Part shown: piece by piece, positions 9,009-30,405 of the stretch
How positions within the stretch are numbered: the first letter of the stretch is position 1
Layout: each line of letters begins with the position of its first letter
Origin: Pseudomonadota bacterium
Lineage (GTDB): Bacteria; Pseudomonadota; Gammaproteobacteria; Acidiferrobacterales; UBA6901
NCBI GenBank assembly: GCA_021819085.1
Contig: JAKASJ010000008.1
Location: 1-64,000, forward strand
DNA length: 64,000 bases
Reading direction: 5' to 3'
The notes under the pieces: generated by a model
The model's input: only the letters and a program-made list of their open reading frames with translations
Told to the model about the DNA's origin: nothing
Database searches by the model: none
Made by a program: the position numbers and the translations under genes

Positions 9009-9338
9009 ATGCAGGCGCAGACGATCAGGCTTGTCACCGACAATGAAGGTTTTCTCGTCGACCCCGATGACTGGAGTGATACCGTCGCCGAGGAACTGGC
9101 CAGGAGGGAAAACATCAACCTCGGATCGGAGCACTGGGAAGTCCTCAATTTCATGCGCGATTATTTCATGCAGCATCGCATCGCTGCGGATGCGCGCTTT
9201 GTGATCAAGTTTCTCAACGAAAAATACGGCAGCGGCTCAGGCCGCGACAGGCTTTACAAGCTGTTCCCGTACGGCTACATGCAGCAGGCATGCAAAGTGG
9301 CCGGCATGCGCCGGCCGCGGGCGTGGAGCACCGGCTAG
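9009..9338 (+). CDS. DsrC/TusE-family protein lacking the C-terminal cysteine (second copy)
   Basis: The 109-residue protein has the family features: TDNEGFLVDPDDW, GSEHWEVLNFMRDYF, and a C-terminal arm RLYKLFPYGYMQQACKVAGM. As in the copy at 4701-5042, CysB (in QQACKVAG) is kept while the terminal CysA position is Trp (PRAWSTG). The two copies have diverged over most of their length, so both seem to be retained as working genes. The ATG at 9009 is chosen because GAGGAG lies 11 bases upstream; an in-frame ATG at 8974 lacks a ribosome site. The promoter appears to be under NsrR control. Confidence 0.85.
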   Translation: MQAQTIRLVTDNEGFLVDPDDWSDTVAEELARRENINLGSEHWEVLNFMRDYFMQHRIAADARFVIKFLNEKYGSGSGRDRLYKLFPYGYMQQACKVAGMRRPRAWSTG

Positions 9339-9868
9339 GGGCCGTATACCTCTTTTTTTCCGCAGCGCTCCCGCCGGGCATTTTGCATGGCCGGTCGCCA
9401 TTTCGCGGAAACGCCCCGGCAGAGGGCTGCGGGGTCAAGTGCCCCGATGGTGCGGGGAATGCGCGGCCCCTTGGCTGCCACAAGGGGGGGCGCAAGGCCG
9501 CCCGGTTCCTGTGTGTTTGCCCGCCCGGTCCGGCAGCATGCGGCGGGAGGGCGGGGAAAGGTGCTCTGCGGCAAGACCGCCCCCTGTCTCAGGTGGTGCG
9601 CGTCACGGGTGGAATTGCGGAGCGCGCCGGCGTGCCCTGCCCCGGGGAGGGCAACCCCGCCGGAAGCGGTTACGGGTATCCGCCGGTGTCGGTACGGATA
9701 CACCCAATGCCAACGTACCTGCAGGCTGCTTGCGTACAAAGTCGGGGGAAATCGCGATGCTGGAGTGCGCCGATTCTCGGACGCTGTGCCAAGCAAGAAG
9801 CATCCGGCCGACGTCTTTCATTGACTTATGTCAAGGCTGGCACCTACCGTTTGCCTTTAGATTTCGGT
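9339..9868. other. GC-rich intergenic with hairpins and FNR-type promoter
   Basis: The 530 bases hold no recognisable gene. A run of eight T at about 9350-9359 after a GC-rich stretch may end the dsrC-like transcript. Several strong hairpins follow, for example CCCCTTG (9467-9473) pairing with CAAGGGG (9481-9487), and runs of G and C are unusually frequent. I compared the region by eye with cobalamin and molybdenum-cofactor riboswitch, RNase P, SRP and tmRNA hallmarks and found none. The last 50 bases carry the FNR-type box and -10 element of the downstream operon. Confidence 0.4.
9821..9834 (+). promoter_or_regulatory. FNR/DNR-type operator and class II promoter
   Basis: TTGACTTATGTCAA is a perfect TTGAC-N4-GTCAA palindrome, the site type of FNR/ANR/DNR regulators. 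A -10-like TAGATT at 9858-9863 lies where a class II activated promoter needs it (box centre at -41.5 puts the start point at about 9869). An Anr/Fnr gene is present at 18059. The operon served is radical SAM, yhcC, ubiU, ubiV and lplA-DUF116. Confidence 0.75.
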
Positions 9869-10501
9869 ATGAGCAATCAGCTTTCATCTTGCCTCGAAGC
9901 ACCGGGGGGCGTGGTTTCGTACGTCCTCCACGGCAACTGCTACCTTAACATCACCAACCGCTGTACGTTGCGGTGCAGCTTTTGTCCCAAATTCAACGGT
10001 ACCTGGGATGTTCAGGGCTGCGCTATGCGCCTGCGCCGTGAACCGACGGCCGACGAGATACTCGATGCAGCAGGGGACCCGCGCAGGTACAGCGAAATCG
10101 TCTTCTGCGGGCTCGGGGAGCCGACTTTGCGCCTTTACACGTCCCTGGAAATTGCATCGCGCCTGCGGGCGCGGGGCGCACGTGTCCGCATCAATACCGA
10201 TGGCCTTGCGAACCTGGTCTATGGCAGGGATGTTACTCCGGATCTGGAAGACAATGTCGATGCGTTGTCGATATCGCTCAATGCCCAGAACGAGATCCTG
10301 TACAACCGCTATTGCCGGCCGAAACTCGCCGACGCCTATCGCTCCTTGCTTGATTTTGCACGGCGCGCCTGCGACTTCGTGCCGGAAGTTACGCTCACGG
10401 CGATTGACGGCCTGCCGGGTGTTGATATTGATGCCTGCGCCAGCATTGCAGCGGGCATCGGTGCAAAGTTCCGCCGCCGCGTTCTCGATGAGGTCGGCTA
10501 G
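9869..10501 (+). CDS. radical SAM protein, TatD-linked family
   Basis: The 210-residue protein has the radical SAM cluster motif C-x3-C-x2-C (C32, C36, C39 in TNRCTLRCSFCPK), a GLGEPTLR SAM-binding loop and a NTDG motif, and lacks extra cluster domains. It resembles the short TatD-associated radical SAM family, whose reaction is not known. It is the first gene of a likely anaerobic operon. The start is uncertain: the ATG at 9869 coincides with the predicted transcription start, and family similarity begins only at VVSYVLHGN, so the GTG at 9911 may be the true start. The stop is 10 bases before the next ATG. Confidence 0.8.
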   Translation: MSNQLSSCLEAPGGVVSYVLHGNCYLNITNRCTLRCSFCPKFNGTWDVQGCAMRLRREPTADEILDAAGDPRRYSEIVFCGLGEPTLRLYTSLEIASRLRARGARVRINTDGLANLVYGRDVTPDLEDNVDALSISLNAQNEILYNRYCRPKLADAYRSLLDFARRACDFVPEVTLTAIDGLPGVDIDACASIAAGIGAKFRRRVLDEVG

Positions 10502-10511
10502 TGTCGACCTA

Positions 10512-11468
10512 ATGGCGCTGTCGGATTACATCACAACCTTTGGGCAGGCCATGATGCGCCGCTATGGCGAGCGCGTGCACAAAATCGCGCTCGACGCGGG
10601 CTTTACCTGCCCCAATCGCGACGACAGCAAGGGTCGAGGCGGGTGCACGTTCTGCAACAATGTTTCCTTCAGTCCCAACGGTCGCCAGCCGTCGCCGATC
10701 GCCCAGCAGGTCGCGGCCGGCCGTGCCGTCGTCGCGCGCAGGACGGGGGCGCGATATGTCCTTGCCTATTTTCAGGCTTATACCAACACCTATGCCGACA
10801 TTGGCCGGCTGCGGGCACTTTATGATGAGGCGCTGGCACAACCCGGGGTGATCGGGATGTCTGTCGGGACGCGGCCGGACTGCGTTCCGCATGAGGTGCT
10901 TGATCTGTTGCAGGGCTACCGCGATGCCGGTTTGGAGGTGTGGCTCGAGCTGGGGCTGCAGTCGAGCTTCGATGCGACTCTGCGGCGCGTAAATCGGGGT
11001 CACGGCTTTTCCGAGTACCGTGCGGCCGTTCTTGCGGCGCGTTCGCGCGGCATGCCGGTCTGCACCCATCTGATCCTCGGTCTGCCGGGCGAGAGTGCCG
11101 CCCACGGCCACACGACGCTTGCTCGCGTTCTTGATTTGGGCGTGGACGGACTGAAACTGCATCCGTTGCATGTGGTGAAAGGCACGCAGCTTGCCAATGA
11201 ATGGCGCCGCGGCGAGTACCGTCCGCTTTCCGAGGAAGAATACATAGAGCTCGCCGCCGACCTGATCGAGATGACGCCGGCCGAAGTGATCTATCACCGC
11301 GTCACAGGCACGGCTGCGTCGGGCATCTTGCTTGCGCCGTCCTGGTGCGGGCACAAATGGCGGGTACTGAACGGGATCGAGGCGACACTGCGTCGCCGCG
11401 GTACCTCGCAGGGCAGTGCGCTCCGCTGCGCTGCTCGCGGGCTGCTCGCCGGAGGATTGGCAAATTGA
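10512..11468 (+). CDS. yhcC: YhcC-type radical SAM protein
   Basis: The 318-residue protein matches the TIGR01212/YhcC family: DYITTFGQAMMRRYGERVHKI, then the spaced cluster ligands C33-x11-C45-x2-C48 (in CPNRDDSKGRGGCTFCNN), SVGTRPDC, and LELGLQSSFDATLRRVNRGH. These are typical of Elp3/MiaB-like TIM-barrel radical SAM enzymes. E. coli YhcC has no established reaction. The gene follows the first radical SAM gene by 10 bases and overlaps ubiU at TTGA, so it is translationally coupled. The C-terminal 30 residues are low in conservation. Confidence 0.9.
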   Translation: MALSDYITTFGQAMMRRYGERVHKIALDAGFTCPNRDDSKGRGGCTFCNNVSFSPNGRQPSPIAQQVAAGRAVVARRTGARYVLAYFQAYTNTYADIGRLRALYDEALAQPGVIGMSVGTRPDCVPHEVLDLLQGYRDAGLEVWLELGLQSSFDATLRRVNRGHGFSEYRAAVLAARSRGMPVCTHLILGLPGESAAHGHTTLARVLDLGVDGLKLHPLHVVKGTQLANEWRRGEYRPLSEEEYIELAADLIEMTPAEVIYHRVTGTAASGILLAPSWCGHKWRVLNGIEATLRRRGTSQGSALRCAARGLLAGGLAN

Positions 11469-12484
11469 ACCGCCGTCTTGAGCTAGTCTGTCCTGCCGGC
11501 AGTCTGCCAGCGCTGAGGGTGGCGGTCGATCACGGTGCCGACGCCGTGTACCTTGGTTTCCGCAATGCCACCAACGCGCGCAACTTCGCCGGCCTGAATT
11601 TCGACGATGGCGAGATGCGCCGCGGCATCCAATATGCGCACGAGCGCGGCGCGCGCGTGTTTCTTGCACTGAATACCTACGCGCGTGCTGGGCAGTGGAG
11701 CGATTGGACACGTGCGGCGGATCTCGCGGCGGATCTGGGCGTGGACGCGGTAATTCTCGCCGATCCGGGTCTGATGCGTTACTGCAGCGAGCGGCACCCG
11801 GAGTTGCGGCTTCATCTGTCGGTACAGGGGTCTGCCACCAACCCGGAGGCCATCGCATTTTATGCGCGCCAGTTCGGCGTGCAGCGTGTGGTCCTGCCTC
11901 GTGTCCTTTCGCTCAGCCAGGTTCGCTACGTGATCAGCAATGCGCCGGTGGAGGTCGAAGTTTTCGGGTTCGGAAGCCTGTGCGTGATGGTTGAGGGCCG
12001 CTGTGCCCTGTCGTCCTATGTTACCGGAGAGTCACCAAATACCTGCGGCGTATGCTCACCGGCGAAGGCCGTGCGCTGGGAGGAAACGGGAAGCAGTCGC
12101 CGGTCGCGATTGAACGGCGTGCTCATTGACGTGTATGCGCCCGGCGAAAGCGCCGGTTATCCGACGCTGTGCAAGGGCCGGTTCATCGTCCGCGGAGGCC
12201 CGGATGCATCACCGGCGTACGCCTTGGAAGAGCCAACCAGTTTGAACGTCCTCGCAATCCTTCCGGAACTCCTCCAGTCCGGCATCGCGGCCATCAAAGT
12301 CGAGGGGCGGCAGCGTAGCCCCGCCTACGTCGGTCAGGTCACACGTGTTCTGCGTGCCGCGCTGGACGCCTGCATGCGCGATCCATCGGGCTATGCGCCG
12401 CGCCCGGAATGGGTCGCTGAACTGGACCGGCTGGCCGAGGGGCGGCAGCACACGCTCGGCGCCATTGATCGTGCGTGGCAATAG
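11465..12484 (+). CDS. ubiU: O2-independent ubiquinone hydroxylation subunit UbiU (peptidase U32 family)
   Basis: The 339-residue product aligns almost end to end with E. coli UbiU (YhbU): LELVCPAGSLPALRVAVDHGADAVYLG, GFGSLCVMVEGRCALSSYVTGESPNTC, and SLN...IKVEGRQRSPAYV. Cysteines in VEGRC, NTCGVC and TLCKGR correspond to its [4Fe-4S] ligands. With UbiV it hydroxylates the ubiquinone ring under anoxia, using prephenate as oxygen donor. The start is a TTG at 11465 overlapping the yhcC stop, with a GGAGG site 10 bases upstream. Next to ubiV and in the same window as ubiT. Confidence 0.95.
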   Translation: MNRRLELVCPAGSLPALRVAVDHGADAVYLGFRNATNARNFAGLNFDDGEMRRGIQYAHERGARVFLALNTYARAGQWSDWTRAADLAADLGVDAVILADPGLMRYCSERHPELRLHLSVQGSATNPEAIAFYARQFGVQRVVLPRVLSLSQVRYVISNAPVEVEVFGFGSLCVMVEGRCALSSYVTGESPNTCGVCSPAKAVRWEETGSSRRSRLNGVLIDVYAPGESAGYPTLCKGRFIVRGGPDASPAYALEEPTSLNVLAILPELLQSGIAAIKVEGRQRSPAYVGQVTRVLRAALDACMRDPSGYAPRPEWVAELDRLAEGRQHTLGAIDRAWQ

Positions 12485-12536
12485 CGGCCCCATGACAGCA
12501 CCGTCCCGATCCGACTCAACCCCTGGCACTGTGGCC

Positions 12537-13436
12537 ATGAAGCTGTCTCTTGGGCCTATCCAGTACTTCTGGGACCGAGACACGGTAATGCAGTTCTATG
12601 GACGTGTTGCCGAGTCTTCGGTGGACATCGTTTATCTGGGAGAGACGGTTTGCGCCAAGCGCCGTGCTCTGAATGCCGCAGATTGGCTGGATATCGCAGC
12701 CCGTCTTGCCGCCGCGGGCAAGGAGGTGGTGCTGTCGACGCTGGTTCTGGTCGAAGCGGCTTCCGAACTGAGCCGCATGCGGCGCATTGTGGACAACGGA
12801 CTCTACCGGGTCGAGGCCAACGACATGGCGGCGGTGAACATGCTTTGCAGCGGCAAGCGTTTCATTGCCGGTCCGCACATCAATATCTATAACGGCGAAA
12901 CGCTGCGGCTGTTTGCCGACCTGGGGGCTTTCCGTTGGGTACCTCCTCTCGAGCTCGGTCGCGAAGCCGTGGCGGCATTGCAAGCAGTGCGCCCGGACGG
13001 CATGGAGACCGAGGTCTTTGCCTTCGGCCGCCTGCCGCTCGCCTTTTCGGCGCGCTGCTTTACGGCGCGTGCCCATGGTCTGCCGAAGGATAGCTGCGAG
13101 TTCCGCTGCGCCGACTATCCGGATGGAATGGAGCTGGAAACCCGCGACGGGCAGCAGTTCCTCGCCCTGAACGGCATACAGGTTCAGTCTGGCTACACGG
13201 CCAATCTCGTGTGCGAACTCCCGACACTGCAGGCGCTCAAAGTCGACGTGTTGCGCCTTTCACCGCAGTCACGTGGCATGGAAACGGTCATCGACTGGTT
13301 CCGGCGCGCCATCGACGGAAGCGTCGATCTGGATGAGGCCGCCCGAGCGCTCGGAGACGCGGTGTCCACCGGTCCGTGCAATGGCTTCTGGCATGGTGTT
13401 GCCGGAATGGACTGGCTGTCGGAATTCGTTCCGTGA
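12537..13436 (+). CDS. ubiV: O2-independent ubiquinone hydroxylation subunit UbiV
   Basis: The 299-residue protein aligns with E. coli UbiV (YhbV): MKLSLGPIQYFWDRDTV at the N-terminus, VDIVYLGETVCAKRRAL, ARCFTARAHGLPKDSCEFRC, and ALNGIQVQSGYTANL. Cysteines in ETVC, SARC, KDSC and EFRC are the expected cluster ligands. UbiU and UbiV form a heterodimer for anaerobic ring hydroxylation. The ATG at 12537 is chosen because it matches the family start; an in-frame ATG at 12492 would add 15 unconserved residues. The stop overlaps the GTG start of the lipoate ligase fusion (GTGA). Confidence 0.95.
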   Translation: MKLSLGPIQYFWDRDTVMQFYGRVAESSVDIVYLGETVCAKRRALNAADWLDIAARLAAAGKEVVLSTLVLVEAASELSRMRRIVDNGLYRVEANDMAAVNMLCSGKRFIAGPHINIYNGETLRLFADLGAFRWVPPLELGREAVAALQAVRPDGMETEVFAFGRLPLAFSARCFTARAHGLPKDSCEFRCADYPDGMELETRDGQQFLALNGIQVQSGYTANLVCELPTLQALKVDVLRLSPQSRGMETVIDWFRRAIDGSVDLDEAARALGDAVSTGPCNGFWHGVAGMDWLSEFVP

Positions 13437-14986
13437 CCTGCGCCGAGTGGACATGGCGGGACAGCGGGATCCTGTCCGGTCGCCGCAACTGCAGCCTAGA
13501 CGGTTGTATACATGCCGGTGCTGCAGGGGCCACACACCTGCGGTTTCACCGTTTCACACCCAGTGTGATCGTGGGCGCGCACGAGGATCCCGAGCGTGTC
13601 GCGCGAATTGAATACTGCACACAGCACGGAATCGACCTCGCCAGGCGATTGACGGGCGGCGGCGCGCTGTATCTGGACGATGACCAGCTGTGCTGGAGTC
13701 TGACGATGCCGTCGGCATGCGGGCGCGCCGCCGGTAAGACCCTGCAGGCGGCACTAGAGCGTCTTGTCCGGGCCGTGGCCGACGCCTTGTGCAGCCTGGG
13801 CGTCGCGGCGACGTTCAAGGCTTTCAACGATGTCGAGATCGACGGCCGCAAGATTGCTTGTGGGTTTCTGGCAGATGACGGACGACGCATGCTGTTTCAG
13901 GGAAGTCTGCTGCTGGACGTGGACGTAGAGACCATGCTCAAGGCGCTGCGGGTGCCGACCGAGAAGCTTTCTGCCCAGGGCATGCGCAGTGCCCGTGAGC
14001 GCTTTACCACTCTGCGCGAGCAGCTCGGAAGAATTCCGCCTCTGGAAGACATTGAGTACTGCATCGTACACGCCCTAGGGAAGGCGCTGGGTGGGCAGTT
14101 CCCACCGCCGATGTGTGCGTCGCCGGAAGGCGCAGACCTGCCGGCGTGCCCAGGGGTCGTGCCGCGGCCTGTGTCGAATGACACGTTTCGTGCGTTCCAT
14201 CGCACCGCCGGAGGAGTCCTGCACGCGGCGGTTGCATTGTACAGCGGCAGTGTGGTGGCCGGAGACGTGCATCTTTCGGGAAGCATCCAGCTGAGCCCGC
14301 CGGATCTGTTTGGTCGGGTCGAACTCGCCCTCGCTGGGCAGCGTATCGATCAGCTTGGAAGACTGCTGGACCACGCCTTGCAGGGGATGGACTGGGAAAT
14401 GGTTGGGGCGACCGCCGAAGATCTCCGCTACGTGCTGCAGCTGGCGGTGAATCATCGGCACGAGCAGGAGGACCTGGGGCTGGAGACCGCCGCGGCCAAC
14501 ATGCTCATGGTGCACAGTCCGGGACGTAACCTGGAGTTGGGCGACATCCTGTCGCAGGTTACTGTCATGCTGGTTCCCTACTGTGCCAAGCCGCTGTGGT
14601 GCAAATGGCGGAACCGTGACGGCTGCACCGAGTGCGGCCGTTGTGAGGTTGGCGAAGCCTACCGGCTGGCACGCGAGCGCGGCATGCAGGTGATCTCGAT
14701 CGGCAACTACGAACACCTGCGCCAGACGCTGGACCGCATGCGCGGCGAAGGCGCGGCGGCCTATGTAGGCATGTGCTGCGAAAATTTCTACCTGAAGCGG
14801 CGCGTGGCCTTCGACGAGGCCGGCATGCCGGCAGTCCTGATGGATATCAGCGGGTCGAACTGCTATGAGCTGCGCCAGGAGGATCTTGCCTATGCCGGTA
14901 GTTTTCAGGCGAAATCACAGCTGAATATCGAGCTGGTGCGCAAGCTGACGGCCCGCATACCCTTATCCAGGAGTGGCAAATGCTGA
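13433..14986 (+). CDS. lipoate-protein ligase A domain fused to DUF116
   Basis: The 517-residue protein has two parts. Residues 1-250 are a biotin/lipoate ligase fold with RRLTGGGALYLDDDQLCWS (71-89) and FNDVEIDGRKIACGF, where Lys140 is the expected lipoyl-AMP-binding lysine. Residues about 340-517 match DUF116, with a cysteine set C384, C390, C398, C401, C404, C448/C449 and C477 that could bind iron-sulfur clusters. A linker with HLSGSIQLSPP lies between. DUF116 is of unknown function and is known beside lipoate ligases in anaerobes. The GTG start at 13433 overlaps the ubiV stop, so it is translationally coupled. A role in anaerobic lipoylation or a lipoate-linked redox step is inferred only. 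Confidence 0.8.
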   Translation: MTCAEWTWRDSGILSGRRNCSLDGCIHAGAAGATHLRFHRFTPSVIVGAHEDPERVARIEYCTQHGIDLARRLTGGGALYLDDDQLCWSLTMPSACGRAAGKTLQAALERLVRAVADALCSLGVAATFKAFNDVEIDGRKIACGFLADDGRRMLFQGSLLLDVDVETMLKALRVPTEKLSAQGMRSARERFTTLREQLGRIPPLEDIEYCIVHALGKALGGQFPPPMCASPEGADLPACPGVVPRPVSNDTFRAFHRTAGGVLHAAVALYSGSVVAGDVHLSGSIQLSPPDLFGRVELALAGQRIDQLGRLLDHALQGMDWEMVGATAEDLRYVLQLAVNHRHEQEDLGLETAAANMLMVHSPGRNLELGDILSQVTVMLVPYCAKPLWCKWRNRDGCTECGRCEVGEAYRLARERGMQVISIGNYEHLRQTLDRMRGEGAAAYVGMCCENFYLKRRVAFDEAGMPAVLMDISGSNCYELRQEDLAYAGSFQAKSQLNIELVRKLTARIPLSRSGKC

Positions 14987-15066: not shown

Positions 15067-15570
15067 CTATCTGGGTTTGCGCGAAGCCACGGTGCCGCTG
15101 GCCGCGAAATTGCGGATCAAGCCGGTCATTGCCAGACCGGCACGCGGACCGAGCATCGAGATCGCATGGGTTTGCCAGTCGAACTCGAGTGCGTCCAGAA
15201 GATTCTTGATGTACAAAGCGGTTTCCGTATCCCCTTCCAGGCTCAGGCGGCGGGCGAAGAACAGCGTGTCGGGGTCTTCGGTACGGGTGGCGAGCTTCCA
15301 GTAGTCCGCAAGCGATCCACGTATACGCACATCGCAGGCGGAACCCTTCTTCGTACAGGCGTGGATCTGGGATCCGGCCACGCGGAGTCTCAGCGTGCAG
15401 GGAGCGTCGGAGATCTCGATGTCAATGCGCTTTCCCTCCAGTTCAGGCAGTCGCCGTTCGATCGTTTGACCACGCAGCAGCCGGTTGAGGGCGTGCGCGA
15501 CGACCTGTGCATGCACAGCTTCGGGAATCAGACGCAGGCCAAACAGAATAGGTTGGACGGGCAGACGCAT
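15067..15570 (-). CDS. ubiT: anaerobic ubiquinone accessory factor UbiT (SCP2 domain)
   Basis: The 167-residue protein from the ATG at 15570 reads MRLPVQPILFGLRLIPEAV and then an SCP2 lipid-binding domain (LPELEGKRIDIEISDAPC, DVRIRGSLADYWKLATRTEDPDTLFFARRL, GDTETALYIKNLLD). This matches E. coli UbiT (YhbT, 174 residues), which binds ubiquinone precursors for UbiU-UbiV. It is convergent with the ubiU-ubiV operon and has its own FNR-type promoter. The upstream in-frame extension to 15741 lacks family sequence. Confidence 0.92.
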   Translation of the reverse strand: MRLPVQPILFGLRLIPEAVHAQVVAHALNRLLRGQTIERRLPELEGKRIDIEISDAPCTLRLRVAGSQIHACTKKGSACDVRIRGSLADYWKLATRTEDPDTLFFARRLSLEGDTETALYIKNLLDALEFDWQTHAISMLGPRAGLAMTGLIRNFAASGTVASRKPR

Positions 15571-16317
15571 AAATGGGTCCCTGGTACGGTTGCAGTACGG
15601 ACGGTCATCGATGATACCCCGAGGGAGGCGGCCGTACGATTGATCCGCGTCAACAAATCCCCGGGCTGCCACCGTGGGCCAACGACGCGAACCGAGAGAT
15701 CCGGGATACGGGACCCCGCGTCTGGCCAGGGCGCCCGACACTGCCCAGACAGTCTCAGGTTTGGCGCTTTCCGTGTGGTCTGTACCGGCCTTTCATAGCT
15801 ACCGGGCCCTGCAGCCGGAAATCGGCCGGAGCGGGCCATTTCTGGCATCACTCCCGAGGATCGGCACAGCCGGGCTGTGCGAGGAAGGGGAAGGCTACGG
15901 GCAGCCTTGGTCGCCGTCCGCTACTGGACGGGCCTGTAGGCCAGGCACAAGAACCACGGTAAGCCATAACAATTCATTGGATTCAAATAATTATCGTGGT
16001 TCCACGGCATCTCAAGACCAGGAAGCCGGGGGATGTTTCTGGATCCGGGACGGGATCTGTCCTGGCTGGAGCGTACCAGAAAAGATGGCGCCGTACCTGC
16101 GGACTGAGGTACCCTTATGTGCTTTCAGGCAGCCTCCTTTCACGCGAGGTGCCGGCTGCGGATTGAACGGCGGGCACGGCGGCTGTGTGCGGCAGGGCGG
16201 TGCGGCCGGAAGTTCGTCATTCGGGGAGGTGGGATGTCGCCGGAGACTGGTTCTGGCATGCAGAACCGACCGCCACGGCTTACCAGCGATGTCGGTTCCC
16301 CGGTTGCCCATTGATTT
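15571..16317. other. intergenic between ubiT and hemN
   Basis: The 747 bases hold the ubiT promoter near 15605-15653. Around 15951-16008 an inverted pair GAACCACG/CGTGGTTC brackets an AT-rich core that may be the hemN promoter region, but no perfect FNR box is seen before hemN. Chance frames elsewhere show no motifs. Confidence 0.4.
15640..15653 (-). promoter_or_regulatory. FNR-type operator and class II promoter of ubiT
   Basis: TTGATCCGCGTCAA (plus-strand reading) fits TTGAT-N4-RTCAA with nine of ten fixed positions. On the minus strand its centre is 41.5 bases before position 15605, and a TATCAT -10 element sits at 15616-15611, exactly where class II activation needs it. The predicted leader to the ubiT ATG is about 35 bases. 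Confidence 0.75.
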
Positions 16318-17706
16318 ATGAACCATTCTCTCAAATTCGAACCAGAACTGCTGCGCCGCTACGACAAGGCCGGACCGCGCTACACGTCGTACCCGACGGC
16401 GGTCCAGTTTCATCAAGGTTTCGGCGAGCAGGAGTACCGCGCCTGGGCTGCGCGTAGCAATGACGGCAATCGCGCGCCGCCGCTTTCGCTTTATGTCCAC
16501 CTGCCATTCTGTGACACCGTGTGCTACTACTGCGCGTGCAACAAAGTGGTTACCAAGGATCACTCGCGTGCGGCGCCTTATCTGCAGAGACTGTTCCGCG
16601 AGATCGCATTTCAGGGAGCTTTGTTTGATCGTTCCCGGCGGGTAGACCAGCTGCACTGGGGCGGGGGCACGCCGACATTCATATCGCCTGCCGAAATGCG
16701 TGCGCTCATGACATCGCTGGGCGAGCATTTCAGCCTTCGCAGTGATGACGGCGGGGAATATTCCATCGAGATCGACCCGCGCACCGCCGGCGAGCCGACG
16801 ATCCGGATGCTGCGCGAGCTTGGCTTTAATCGCATCAGTCTTGGAGTGCAGGACTTCGACCCGGTGGTGCAGAAGGCGGTTAACCGCGTGCAGTCTGAGC
16901 AGGAGACGGTGGCTGTCCTCGATGCTGCCCGGCAGCACGGATTTCGATCGGTCAACATCGACTTGATATACGGACTTCCCCATCAAAGCAGAGAGAGTTT
17001 TGCGCGCACGCTCGATCGCGTCATCGCCGCTGGCCCGGAACGCTTGTCGGTGTTCAACTACGCGCACCTTCCGGAACTGTTCAAGCCGCAACGGCGTATT
17101 AAAGCCGAGGATCTGCCGAGCGCGGCGGAGAAACTCGATATCCTGCAGCTTACCATTGAAAAGCTCGGGACGGCGGGCTACGTGTACATTGGCATGGATC
17201 ATTTCGCGCGCCCGGACGACGAACTTGCCATAGCCCAGCGCAACGGCACTCTTTATCGAAATTTCCAAGGCTATTCCACCCATGCCGATTGTGACCTCGT
17301 GGGTCTGGGAGTCAGCGCGATCGGAAAGATTGGCGGAAGCTACAGCCAGAATGTGCGTACGCTGGATGAATATCATTCCGCAATCGATGCAGACCGGCTC
17401 CCCGTGATGCGTGGCATAGAGCTGAGCAATGATGATGTGCTGCGGCGTGAGGTCATTACCAGACTTATCTGTCACTTCGAACTCGACGTGGATACGATCA
17501 GCGAGCGGTTTGCGATCCGCTTCTCGGATTACTTCGCCCAGGAACTGGCGGAACTCCAGTCCATGCAGAACGACGGTCTGTTGGCGGTTGATCCGCATTC
17601 GATCCGCGTCCTGCCCTCCGGCAAGCTGCTTATCAGGAACATCTGCATGGTCTTCGACCGCTACCTGCGCGCCCGGAAGGAGCAACGCTTTTCCAAAGTG
17701 ATCTGA
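16318..17706 (+). CDS. hemN: oxygen-independent coproporphyrinogen III dehydrogenase
   Basis: The 462-residue protein aligns throughout with E. coli HemN: RRYDKAGPRYTSYPTA, the radical SAM cluster ligands C65, C69 and C72 plus C74 (in FCDTVCYYCACNK), QLHWGGGTPTF, SVFNYAHLPELFKPQRRIK, and the C-terminal GKLLIRNICMVFDRYL. It decarboxylates coproporphyrinogen III to protoporphyrinogen IX without O2 in the cytoplasm, using two SAM. The full length and catalytic motifs separate it from HemW, which lacks the RNICMVFD region. The next gene downstream encodes an Fnr-type regulator. Confidence 0.97.
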   Translation: MNHSLKFEPELLRRYDKAGPRYTSYPTAVQFHQGFGEQEYRAWAARSNDGNRAPPLSLYVHLPFCDTVCYYCACNKVVTKDHSRAAPYLQRLFREIAFQGALFDRSRRVDQLHWGGGTPTFISPAEMRALMTSLGEHFSLRSDDGGEYSIEIDPRTAGEPTIRMLRELGFNRISLGVQDFDPVVQKAVNRVQSEQETVAVLDAARQHGFRSVNIDLIYGLPHQSRESFARTLDRVIAAGPERLSVFNYAHLPELFKPQRRIKAEDLPSAAEKLDILQLTIEKLGTAGYVYIGMDHFARPDDELAIAQRNGTLYRNFQGYSTHADCDLVGLGVSAIGKIGGSYSQNVRTLDEYHSAIDADRLPVMRGIELSNDDVLRREVITRLICHFELDVDTISERFAIRFSDYFAQELAELQSMQNDGLLAVDPHSIRVLPSGKLLIRNICMVFDRYLRARKEQRFSKVI

Positions 17707-18058
17707 GCTTTCGAGCGTCTGTTGGACAGGCTTAGGTCCCTCACCTGTGTGATTCCTGTTGCTGGCCGATCAGACACCACATTGATATGTGGCGCTCGCT
17801 CGGTTCAATGTCCAGCGTCCGCTATAGACATCAGTCGATCGATGGCCTGCAATGTGCGCCCCTTGCGGCAGGGCAGGCCCAGCCCGGATATCGATTGGCA
17901 CCAGAGTCAAACCGCTATATAGTCGGCTGACGCGTATGCACGGAACGGTTTGTCCGGCGTCCGGGTTGCACGCGGTCATCACGAGCCTAAATTACGATAA
18001 ATTGTAAGGCTATTTCCTGCAGGGCTGAAAATCCGTTCTTACAGGAGGTTTGCGGATC
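17707..18058. other. intergenic upstream of the Anr/Fnr gene
   Basis: These 352 bases contain no recognisable gene. The last 70 are AT-richer and probably hold the promoter of the regulator; no FNR box is seen, so autoregulation is not supported. Confidence 0.4.
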
Positions 18059-18805
18059 GTGTCTGACGCACTCATCAGCGACAAGAGAGGCGCTGCCGTG
18101 ATCAGCATCGCCAGCATCAAGGCAGCCTGCAAGGATTGCTCGCTTCGGGATCTGTGTCTGCCGCTGGGTCTAGATGATGCCGACATGTTGGCGCTCGACC
18201 GGATTGTCAAGCGGCGACGTACCGTACGCAAGGGCGAACACCTGTTTCGCATGGGAGAGCCGCTGCAGATGCTCTACGCCATACGTTCGGGTGCGATGAA
18301 GACCTCGGAGCTGCTCGGGGACGGGCGCATCCAGATTACTGGTTTCCAGCTGCCCGGCGAGATACTCGGCGTCGACGCGATCGATGGGGACCGCCATCGC
18401 TGCAATGCCGAGGCGCTCGAGATTTCGGAAGTTTGCGAGATTCCCTGGGGCAAGCTCGAGGAACTCGCACAGCACATCAGCGGGTTGCAGCATCAGCTTC
18501 TGCGCCTGATGAGCGGCGAGATTGGGCGCGAAGGCCAGCTGCTGCTCATGATCGGCAAGATGAGTGCTGACGAGCGCCTGCTTGCGTGTCTGCTCAATTT
18601 CTCTCAGCGCCAAATGCGGCTCGGTATGTCACCTACCGACATCAAGCTCCACATGTCCCGTCAGGATATGGGCGATTACCTGGGGCTTGCCCTGGAGACC
18701 GTAAGTCGTCTGTTTTCCCGATTCCAGGAGGAGGGACTGCTTACCGTCCGCGGCAAGTACGTACACCTGACCAGCCTAGACGCGATCCACCGTCGCCTGA
18801 CTTAA
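18059..18805 (+). CDS. fnr: Crp/Fnr-family oxygen sensor (Anr/Fnr)
   Basis: The 248-residue regulator carries the four cluster ligands of Fnr: C24, C27, C33 (AACKDCSLRDLC) and C126 (SEVCEIPW), at the same spacing as E. coli C20, C23, C29 and C122. A cNMP-type beta roll follows, then a helix-turn-helix with recognition helix LALETVSRLFSRF, whose E-x2-SR residues read TTGAT/ATCAA boxes. The [4Fe-4S] form dimerises and activates transcription under anoxia. The GTG at 18059 is chosen because AGGAGG lies 10 bases upstream. It likely acts on the boxes at 9821, 15640 and 30392. Confidence 0.95.
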   Translation: MSDALISDKRGAAVISIASIKAACKDCSLRDLCLPLGLDDADMLALDRIVKRRRTVRKGEHLFRMGEPLQMLYAIRSGAMKTSELLGDGRIQITGFQLPGEILGVDAIDGDRHRCNAEALEISEVCEIPWGKLEELAQHISGLQHQLLRLMSGEIGREGQLLLMIGKMSADERLLACLLNFSQRQMRLGMSPTDIKLHMSRQDMGDYLGLALETVSRLFSRFQEEGLLTVRGKYVHLTSLDAIHRRLT

Positions 18806-28263: not shown

Positions 28264-30282
28264 CTACAGTATTGCCACGATAAGCAGCGCCACGATGTTG
28301 ATGATCTTGATCAGCGGGTTGACCGCAGGTCCGGCGGTGTCCTTGTAGGGGTCGCCCACCGTGTCGCCGGTCACCGCAGCCTTGTGGGCGTCGGAGCCCT
28401 TGCCGCCGAAATGGCCCGATTCGATGTATTTCTTGGCATTGTCCCAGGCGCCACCGCCAGTGGTCATGGAGATCGCGACAAACAGTCCAGTCACGATCGA
28501 CCCCATCAGCACTCCGCCCAAGGCCTGCGGTCCGAGCCCAAGGCCCACGACGACCGGTACCAGAACCGGCAACAGCGACGGAATGATCATCTCCTTGATC
28601 GCGGCATGGGTGAGCATGTCGACGGCTTTCGAGTAGTCGGGCTTGGCTGTGCCTTCCATGATTCCCTTGATCTCCTTGAACTGGCGGCGCACCTCGACTA
28701 CGACGGAACCTGCCGCACGGCCGACCGCCTCCATCGCCATGGCGGCGAACAGGAAGGGCACGAGCCCGCCAATGAAAAGTCCTATGATCACCATGTGGTT
28801 GGAGAGGTCGAATGCCAGCACCTTGCCGCGGGCGGCGAGGGCGTGCGTGTAGTCGGCAAACAACACCAGCGCGGCAAGGCCAGCTGAGCCGATTGCGTAG
28901 CCCTTGGTCACCGCCTTGGTCGTGTTACCAACGGCGTCCAGAGGGTCGGTGATATTGCGGATCTCGGCCGGCAAATTGGCCATCTCCGCGATGCCGCCAG
29001 CGTTGTCCGTGATCGGACCGTATGCGTCGAGTGCCACGATGATGCCGGCCATCGACAGCATAGCGGTGGCGGCAATGGCGATGCCATAAAGGCCCGCAAG
29101 CGCATAGGCGCCCCAGATTCCGGCGCAGATCACCAGTACCGGGGCGGCGGTCGCCTTCATCGATACCGCGAGTCCGGCAATGACGTTGGTGCCGTGGCCG
29201 GTGGTGGAGGCCTGGGCGATGTAGCGCACCGGACCGTACTCCGTGGCGGTATAGTACTCGGTGATTACCACCAGTGCGGCAGTCACCGCCAGTCCAATCA
29301 GCGCGCTGTAGTAGATAGAATGCCACGCATAGGCGCCATTGCCGGCCATCAGCTTCTCGGTCACGAAATAAAACGAGATCGCCGAAAGCACGCCGGCCAC
29401 GATAAGACCGCGGTACAGCGCGTTCATGATCTTCCCGCCATCGCGGGCTTTTACGAAGAACGTGCCGACGATGGATGCCAGGATGGACACCCCGCCCAGA
29501 ACCAGCGGAAACAGCACGGCGTTATTGAACCCCTTGATCACGAGGCTTCCGAGCAGCATGCTCGCGACGATCGTTATTGCGTAGGTTTCGAAAAGATCCG
29601 CCGCCATGCCGGCGCAGTCACCCACGTTGTCACCGACATTGTCGGCGATGACCGCCGGATTGCGTGGGTCGTCCTCCGGAATGCCTGCCTCGACCTTGCC
29701 GACCAGGTCCGCACCGACATCCGCGCCTTTGGTGAAAATGCCGCCGCCCAGTCGGGCAAAGATCGAAATCAGCGATGCGCCGAAGGCCAGTCCGACCAGG
29801 GGTGAAAGGTTGACGCTCTCGCCCGCGGGCGTGAGGTAGCGCAGTACCGTGTAGTAACCGGTGACGCCCAGCAGTCCCAGCCCGACGACCAGCATACCGG
29901 TGATGGCGCCGCCCCGGAACGCTACTTTGAGTGCCGCGTTTAGCCCATCCTTGGCAGCCTCGGCGGTGCGGACGTTCGACCGTACCGAGATGTTCATTCC
30001 CAGGATTCCCGCGAGGCCGGAGCACACTGCGCCGATGGCGAACCCGATTGCAGTCATCTTGTTGAGGGCAAAGAAGATGATGGCGAACAGGATGATGCCT
30101 ACGACCGCGATGGTGGTGTATTGGCGCTTGAGGTAGGCGGAGGCGCCCTGCTGAATGGCCGCCGCGATCTCTCGCATGCGTTCGTTGCCGGCGGATTTTT
30201 TCATGATCCACGAGATGGAAATGATCCCATAGAGCAATGCCGCGGCCGCGCATGCGAACGCGAAGATCAGACTTACAGACAT
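28264..30282 (-). CDS. hppA: K+-independent proton-pumping inorganic pyrophosphatase
   Basis: The 672-residue protein has about 16 membrane spans. It pumps protons across the inner membrane using PPi hydrolysis. Diagnostic motifs are [34 protein letters not shown] and [15 protein letters not shown] Lys in [16 protein letters not shown] marks the K+-insensitive class, where K+-dependent pumps have Ala. It may also run in reverse to make PPi. It is the last gene of a PPi-related run that includes pfp, and has an FNR-type box 110 bases upstream and its own terminator. Confidence 0.97.
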
Positions 30283-30391: not shown

Positions 30392-30405
30392 TTGATCCCG
30401 GTCAA
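30392..30405 (-). promoter_or_regulatory. FNR-type operator upstream of hppA
   Basis: TTGATCCCGGTCAA fits TTGAT-N4-RTCAA at nine of ten fixed positions and is the same class as the ubiT and radical SAM operon boxes. Its centre predicts a start point near 30357 on the minus strand, 75 bases before the hppA ATG. The -10 region there (around 30368-30363) is AT-rich but not a close match. It lies between the 73-aa gene and hppA, so it would give hppA its own low-oxygen promoter. Confidence 0.6.

Follow-up and report, generated by a model that had tools for sequence, protein, structure and literature searches.

The 64,000-nt stretch of contig JAKASJ010000008.1 (assembly GCA_021819085.1, a pseudomonadotal bacterium of the Acidiferrobacterales, UBA6901), hereafter the window, contains a run of five genes that follows a perfect FNR box and includes ubiU and ubiV. 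From the box onwards, and packed up to position 14986, these genes encode a TatD-associated radical S-adenosylmethionine (SAM) protein of family TIGR04038, the radical SAM protein YhcC/MnmL, UbiU, UbiV, and a protein in which LplA, LplB and DUF116 domains are joined, hereafter the fusion (Table 1). Successive genes are spaced by a 10-nt gap, a 4-nt overlap, a 52-nt gap and a second 4-nt overlap, and with the widest gap (ubiU-ubiV) no longer than that there is scant space for internal promoters. Both the tight packing and the perfect FNR site with a -10 element at class II spacing had been described in a first-pass annotation made from the sequence alone, and both were borne out, box and -10 region (CGTTTGCCTTTAGATT) being invariant in four relatives, with diverging sequence 5' of the box. 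The putative -10 is a weak TATAAT match (about 4 of 6 positions, by eye). From this layout, the five genes are predicted to be co-transcribed from the FNR-boxed promoter as one operon. At class II spacing, transcription would begin at or beside the ATG of the first radical SAM gene (9869), so that the message may be leaderless. An alternative start for this gene, GTG 9911, fits the hidden Markov model equally well; as the sole start it was rejected, not being conserved in two of the four relatives (L033 and L035).

Table 1. Features of the ubiUV locus in window coordinates. Curated family cut-offs, in bits: NF047963, 440; NF047965, 275; NF047962, 46.9; TIGR01212, 180; TIGR04038, 129.7.
Feature	Position	Strand	Evidence
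FNR box TTGACTTATGTCAA	9821-9834	+	perfect TTGAC-N4-GTCAA; conserved in L032-L035
Putative -10 region TTTAGATT	9856-9863	+	class II spacing; invariant in window and four relatives
TatD-associated radical SAM protein, 210 aa	9869-10501	+	TIGR04038, 236.5 bits, full-length, above cut-off; PF04055
YhcC/MnmL radical SAM protein	10512-11468	+	TIGR01212, 370.7 bits; PF16199
ubiU (TTG start)	11465-12484	+	NF047963, 537.5 bits, above cut-off
ubiV	12537-13436	+	NF047965, 404 bits, above cut-off
LplA-LplB-DUF116 fusion, 517 aa (GTG start)	13433-14986	+	PF21948, 118 bits; PF01976 (DUF116), 32.6 bits
ubiT, convergent with the operon	15067-15570	-	NF047962, 131.9 bits, above cut-off; start ATG 15570
FNR box of ubiT TTGACGCGGATCAA (on minus strand)	15640-15653	-	perfect match; about 70 nt 5' of ATG 15570
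hemN, O2-independent coproporphyrinogen III oxidase	16318-17706	+	TIGR00538, 626 bits; synteny in L032, L034, L035, L037
fnr regulator gene, conserved neighbour	18050-18805	+	NF008365, 250 bits; synteny

Perfect sites of the pattern TTGAY-N4-RTCAA occur three times in the 64 kb, against 0.16 expected. When 46 related loci were scored against shuffled controls, an FNR box matching at 9 of 10 positions or better lay 5' of the first gene in 22 of them (18 perfect), versus 1/46 for the shuffles. The Ectothiorhodospira loci have a 9-of-10 box near the gap between yhcC and ubiU and none before the first gene, and their operon may therefore be split at that point; in the window, unlike this gapped arrangement, the two genes overlap.

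The translations of ubiU and ubiV retain the 4Fe-4S cysteine motifs (C-X6-C-X16-C-X38-C and C-X12-C-X3-C, respectively) defined in PMC6747719. With ubiT and its own FNR box just downstream of the operon, the locus holds a complete ubiTUV set; for ubiT we preferred the ATG at about 15570 over the longest-open-reading-frame start at 15741. The same genome encodes two O2-dependent Ubi flavin hydroxylases beside UbiUV. E. coli makes ubiquinone anaerobically via ubiTUV (PMC6747719), its yhbUV (ubiUV) and its unlinked yhcC are both listed as direct FNR-activated targets (PMC3688515), and FNR-boxed ubiTUV loci of Pseudomonadota have already been described (PMC11707229); the ubiquinone part of the operon adds little to published work. 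The latter paper mentions none of YhcC, radical SAM or lipoate, and in the open-access literature, supplements excluded, we found neither the extended operon nor a linkage of yhcC or a ligase-DUF116 protein to ubiUV described.

The distribution of the five genes was determined in 321 genomes of the class, the present one included (G000). UbiU was found in 81 genomes, among which YhcC is missing from 25, the TIGR04038 protein from 46 and the fusion from 70. YhcC is present in 57 genomes, all but one of them UbiU-positive (56/57), and adjoins ubiU in 46 (33 families; median gap 48 nt). The TIGR04038 protein occurs in 53 genomes (35 UbiU-positive, 15 with the gene adjacent to ubiU), and the full-length fusion in 11, all 11 UbiU-positive, with the gene directly after ubiV in 9 genomes of 7 families. 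Neighbourhood analysis, which the first-pass annotation had proposed as a check, hence divided: just two genomes (G000 and G207) have the full set of five in one neighbourhood, while the pairs yhcC-ubiU and ubiV-fusion are adjacent in 46/81 UbiU genomes and 9/11 fusion genomes, respectively. A scan of named genomes by alignment of the fusion, counted on the best 80 of 155 loci, placed the fusion near ubiUV in 53 and all five genes together in 19, including Ectothiorhodospira species, Acidiferrobacter-like metagenome-assembled genomes (MAGs) and close relatives of the window. In betaproteobacterial MAGs the order is often yhcC-ubiU-ubiV-fusion-ubiT, several also having nrdD/nrdG. One contig filed under a Micrarchaeota MAG (L080) carries a ubiV and a fusion nearly identical to those of the proteobacterial locus L082, and is therefore a probable case of binning contamination.

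Both radical SAM proteins had been taken for uncharacterised. This holds for the TIGR04038 protein, on which we found nothing useful in the open-access literature and which would be a further anaerobic enzyme. It does not hold wholly for YhcC, which scores twice the cut-off of TIGR01212, a family that NCBIfam names "tRNA modification radical SAM protein MnmL/YtqA". By this family membership, YhcC is probably MnmL, a radical SAM enzyme turning cmnm5U into nm5U at the tRNA wobble base. A review lists MnmC/MnmL for nm5s2U formation (PMC12548931), and the identity of the MnmC(o)-like enzyme in organisms lacking mnmC was stated to be open in 2023 (PMC9976899). YhcC and the MnmC oxidase occur together in 2 of the 321 genomes, versus about 12 expected (P = 4e-5, uncorrected for relatedness), and MnmC(o) has no match at E <= 1e-20 in the present genome; E. 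coli carries both YhcC and MnmC. The near confinement of yhcC to UbiUV genomes, mostly beside ubiU, suggests an O2-independent wobble-modification route in bacteria lacking MnmC.

The last gene had been read as a lipoate ligase fused to a cysteine-rich DUF116 domain, which was confirmed, and an additional LplB domain was found. By profile positions, residues 8-231 align with LplA and residues 247-332 with LplB, a separate protein in Thermoplasma (PDB 3r07_C); residues 374-479 match DUF116. The AlphaFold2 model is of high score (predicted local distance difference test, 92; predicted template modelling score, 0.90), LplA structures are matched by Foldseek at E 7e-22, and the isolated DUF116 domain also models well. 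In an alignment of 79 fusion sequences, the catalytic Lys140 is kept in 77, along with the RR-TGGG motif, and the eight DUF116 cysteines are each kept in 77-79; these cysteines probably hold an iron-sulfur (Fe-S) cluster. The fusion shares 33% identity with the genome's own sLpl-like protein, and further LplA-B_cat proteins are encoded elsewhere in the genome. In a tree, sLpl forms a single well-supported clade that includes archaeal and Chloroherpetonaceae DUF116 fusions, with the proteobacterial fusions, the present one among them, outside it; branches are long and the details unsure. In two archaeal MAG contigs (L102 and L109), an sLpl-like ligase fused to DUF116 lies beside a glutamine amidotransferase gene. 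We found no paper in the open-access literature that treats DUF116 together with lipoate.

Sulfur-cluster genes (sHdr, lip, lbpA) were named by recognition and from PMC10332631. A complete sHdr cluster of this kind is present in the genome (G000:C29), with two LbpA genes, lipS2, sLpl, lipT and lipS1. All nine genomes with the fusion at ubiV, the present one included, also hold a LipS1/LipT/sLpl/LipS2/LbpA cluster. More generally, in all 25 genomes with an sLpl-like match the locus contains lip genes, in most cases accompanied by sHdr genes; in seven (G311, G267, G191, G035, G285, G178 and G045) the lip/lbpA part stands alone within the stretch read. Among UbiU-positive genomes, the fusion is at ubiV in 9 of the 11 with sLpl and in none of the 70 without it, where two divergent copies lie elsewhere (Fisher test, P = 2e-10, relatedness ignored); none of the 14 sLpl-positive genomes without UbiU has a fusion. 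In a Chloroherpetonaceae locus (L111), a DUF116-fused ligase directly follows lipT-lipS1-lipS2 and is the sole ligase seen in that lipoate operon. In Hyphomicrobium denitrificans, sulfur-responsive repressors also influence ubiXDTUV and denitrification (PMC12423496), which may hint, independently, at a link between sulfur metabolism and ubiTUV.

A third LbpA-like GcvH homologue, LbpA3 (a GCV_H protein; L145:1438-1884, G000:C3), is encoded outside the sHdr cluster. Its gene neighbours encode MoeA, NnrS-like membrane proteins and a Crp/Fnr-family regulator, and a perfect FNR-type box lies at L145:2334. LbpA3 is a candidate acceptor for the fusion but was rejected as the only one, since 10 of the 16 genomes that carry it have no fusion. 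The sHdr clusters of L113, L114, L115, L132, L136, L140 and L141 contain, a few kb from lipS1, a further sLpl-like gene of distant similarity (25-32% identity).

Gene content, boxes, conservation, co-occurrence, motifs and fold are established here by computation. On these grounds, we consider it probable (about 0.6) that the five genes form an FNR-switched set of O2-independent enzymes serving different pathways and not one cofactor pathway, with the fusion probably a lipoate ligase. This reading is favoured because the operon and its recurrent neighbours (NrdD, NrdG, HemN and UbiD, along with Fnr) share O2-independent chemistry and not one product. The wider anaerobic cofactor module proposed in the first-pass annotation thus stands as a conserved, FNR-boxed operon of ubiUV with extra genes, of which no description was found, but not as a single pathway, since each extra gene is missing from many genomes with UbiUV, the family of YhcC suggests tRNA modification, and the fusion follows lipoate assembly in sulfur oxidation and not ubiquinone.

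Alternatively, the fusion might be a general salvage ligase supplying lipoate to anaerobic central metabolism (pyruvate and 2-oxoglutarate dehydrogenases, GcvH), its association with sulfur genes arising from lineage overlap. The complete LplA-LplB architecture, the possible acceptors in this genome (GcvH and an E2-like match) and the lineages (L039, L044, L103) in which the surroundings of the fusion hold no lipoate cluster are in keeping with this; we nevertheless regard it as unlikely in view of the 0/70 count given above, the other LplA-B_cat proteins already in the genome, and the rejection of canonical lipoyl domains by sLpl-kind ligases (PMC10332631). It is quite unlikely that the fusion is a former ligase turned redox or sulfur sensor or carrier, whose LplA fold would bind lipoate and whose DUF116 cysteines would sense: conservation is indeed highest in DUF116 (58% mean column identity in alignment A3, versus 47% in full-length alignment A2), two members have lost the catalytic lysine, and a second Thioalkalivibrio ligase encoded outside the sulfur cluster is inactive on LbpA1/2 (PMC6067878; membership in the fusion family not established), but nearly all members keep the lysine and RR-TGGG motifs and in the L111 operon no ligase other than the DUF116 form was seen. 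Least probable of all is that the radical SAM protein, YhcC and the fusion aid UbiUV hydroxylation in one pathway, for example with electrons or a lipoylated partner, as the tight packing and conserved gene order could suggest, since each is missing from many of the 81 UbiU genomes, the fusion tracks lipoate clusters, and E. coli, with its ubiTUV, has no TIGR04038 or DUF116 match.

Several observations weigh against the multi-pathway reading and its lipoate component. The sampled genomes are kin, so the Fisher values overstate the association; two of the 11 UbiU-positive, sLpl-positive genomes (G035 and G285) have no fusion; and LbpA3 orthologues occur in 16 genomes of the class, all with an sLpl-type ligase and just 6 with the fusion. 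In G122 and G237 the fusion is distant from ubiUV and from lipoate clusters, and 27 of the best 80 named loci have no ubiUV nearby; partners away from ubiUV (sarcosine-oxidase-like in L039/L044/L047, MgtE-like and PmbA-like in L121) show no shared theme. For DUF116, the fold search gave no PDB match with E below 0.015, and sequence searching turned up no relative whose structure has been solved. Lastly, a search of this genome for MnmM and an orphan MnmC methyltransferase found none, so that mnm5U would not be completable here by a known enzyme.

Under the multi-pathway reading, when oxygen runs out FNR would bind the operon box and turn on the five-gene message. UbiU-UbiV, with UbiT made from its own FNR promoter, would provide O2-independent hydroxylation of ubiquinone precursors in addition to the two flavin hydroxylases, and YhcC would act on tRNA as MnmL. 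The fusion would probably serve anoxic sulfur oxidation as a second lipoate ligase, loading lipoate (or octanoate) onto an LbpA-kind, GcvH-like carrier under anoxia, its DUF116 domain coupling ligase activity to anoxia or redox state through the putative Fe-S cluster. The catalytic roles of all products and the acceptor of the lipoate are what we infer in this scheme, and the lipoate role of the fusion is its most informative hypothesis and its least secure. Since every sampled genome with the fusion at ubiUV also has a lipoate-assembly cluster of sulfur oxidation, the fusion does offer a concrete biochemical hypothesis for DUF116. More tentatively still, LplA-LplB-DUF116 could possibly be a new class of lipoate ligase that depends on an Fe-S cluster and is made only under anoxia. 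Sulfur-oxidising bacteria could then run a lipoate-carrier (LbpA) pathway on nitrate or some acceptor other than O2, and the UbiUV operon would link quinone supply to sulfur oxidation under anoxia.

Two other features of the window were noted. The third perfect FNR-type box (30392-30405) lies about 110 nt 5' of a membrane H+-pyrophosphatase gene (28264-30282, minus strand), which suggests O2 control of pyrophosphate energy conservation. Just 5' of the operon, a DsrC/TusE-family gene (9009-9338) encodes a protein that keeps the cysteine in QQACKVAGM but whose C-terminus, RPRAWSTG, lacks the cysteine that DsrC typically has there.

Compared with known systems, the TIGR04038 protein is a full-length family member above the cut-off, but no tatD gene lies within its operon. 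YhcC likewise passes the MnmL/YtqA cut-off, and differs in standing beside ubiUV, behind an FNR box, in a genome where no MnmM methyltransferase was found. The fusion resembles the sLpl(AB) ligases that act with LipS1/S2 (PMC10332631; PMC6067878) in its LplA and LplB domains, its catalytic lysine, its 33% identity and its occurrence in the same genomes, whereas it carries a C-terminal cysteine-rich DUF116, falls outside the sLpl clade of the sHdr systems, and is encoded in the ubiUV operon instead of the sHdr cluster. Finally, the locus is like the FNR-regulated ubiTUV loci (PMC11707229; E. coli, PMC6747719) in having ubiU followed by ubiV, ubiT nearby, and FNR boxes 5' of the first gene and of ubiT, and unlike them in its two radical SAM genes before ubiU, its ligase-DUF116 gene after ubiV, and its downstream, convergent ubiT with a box of its own.

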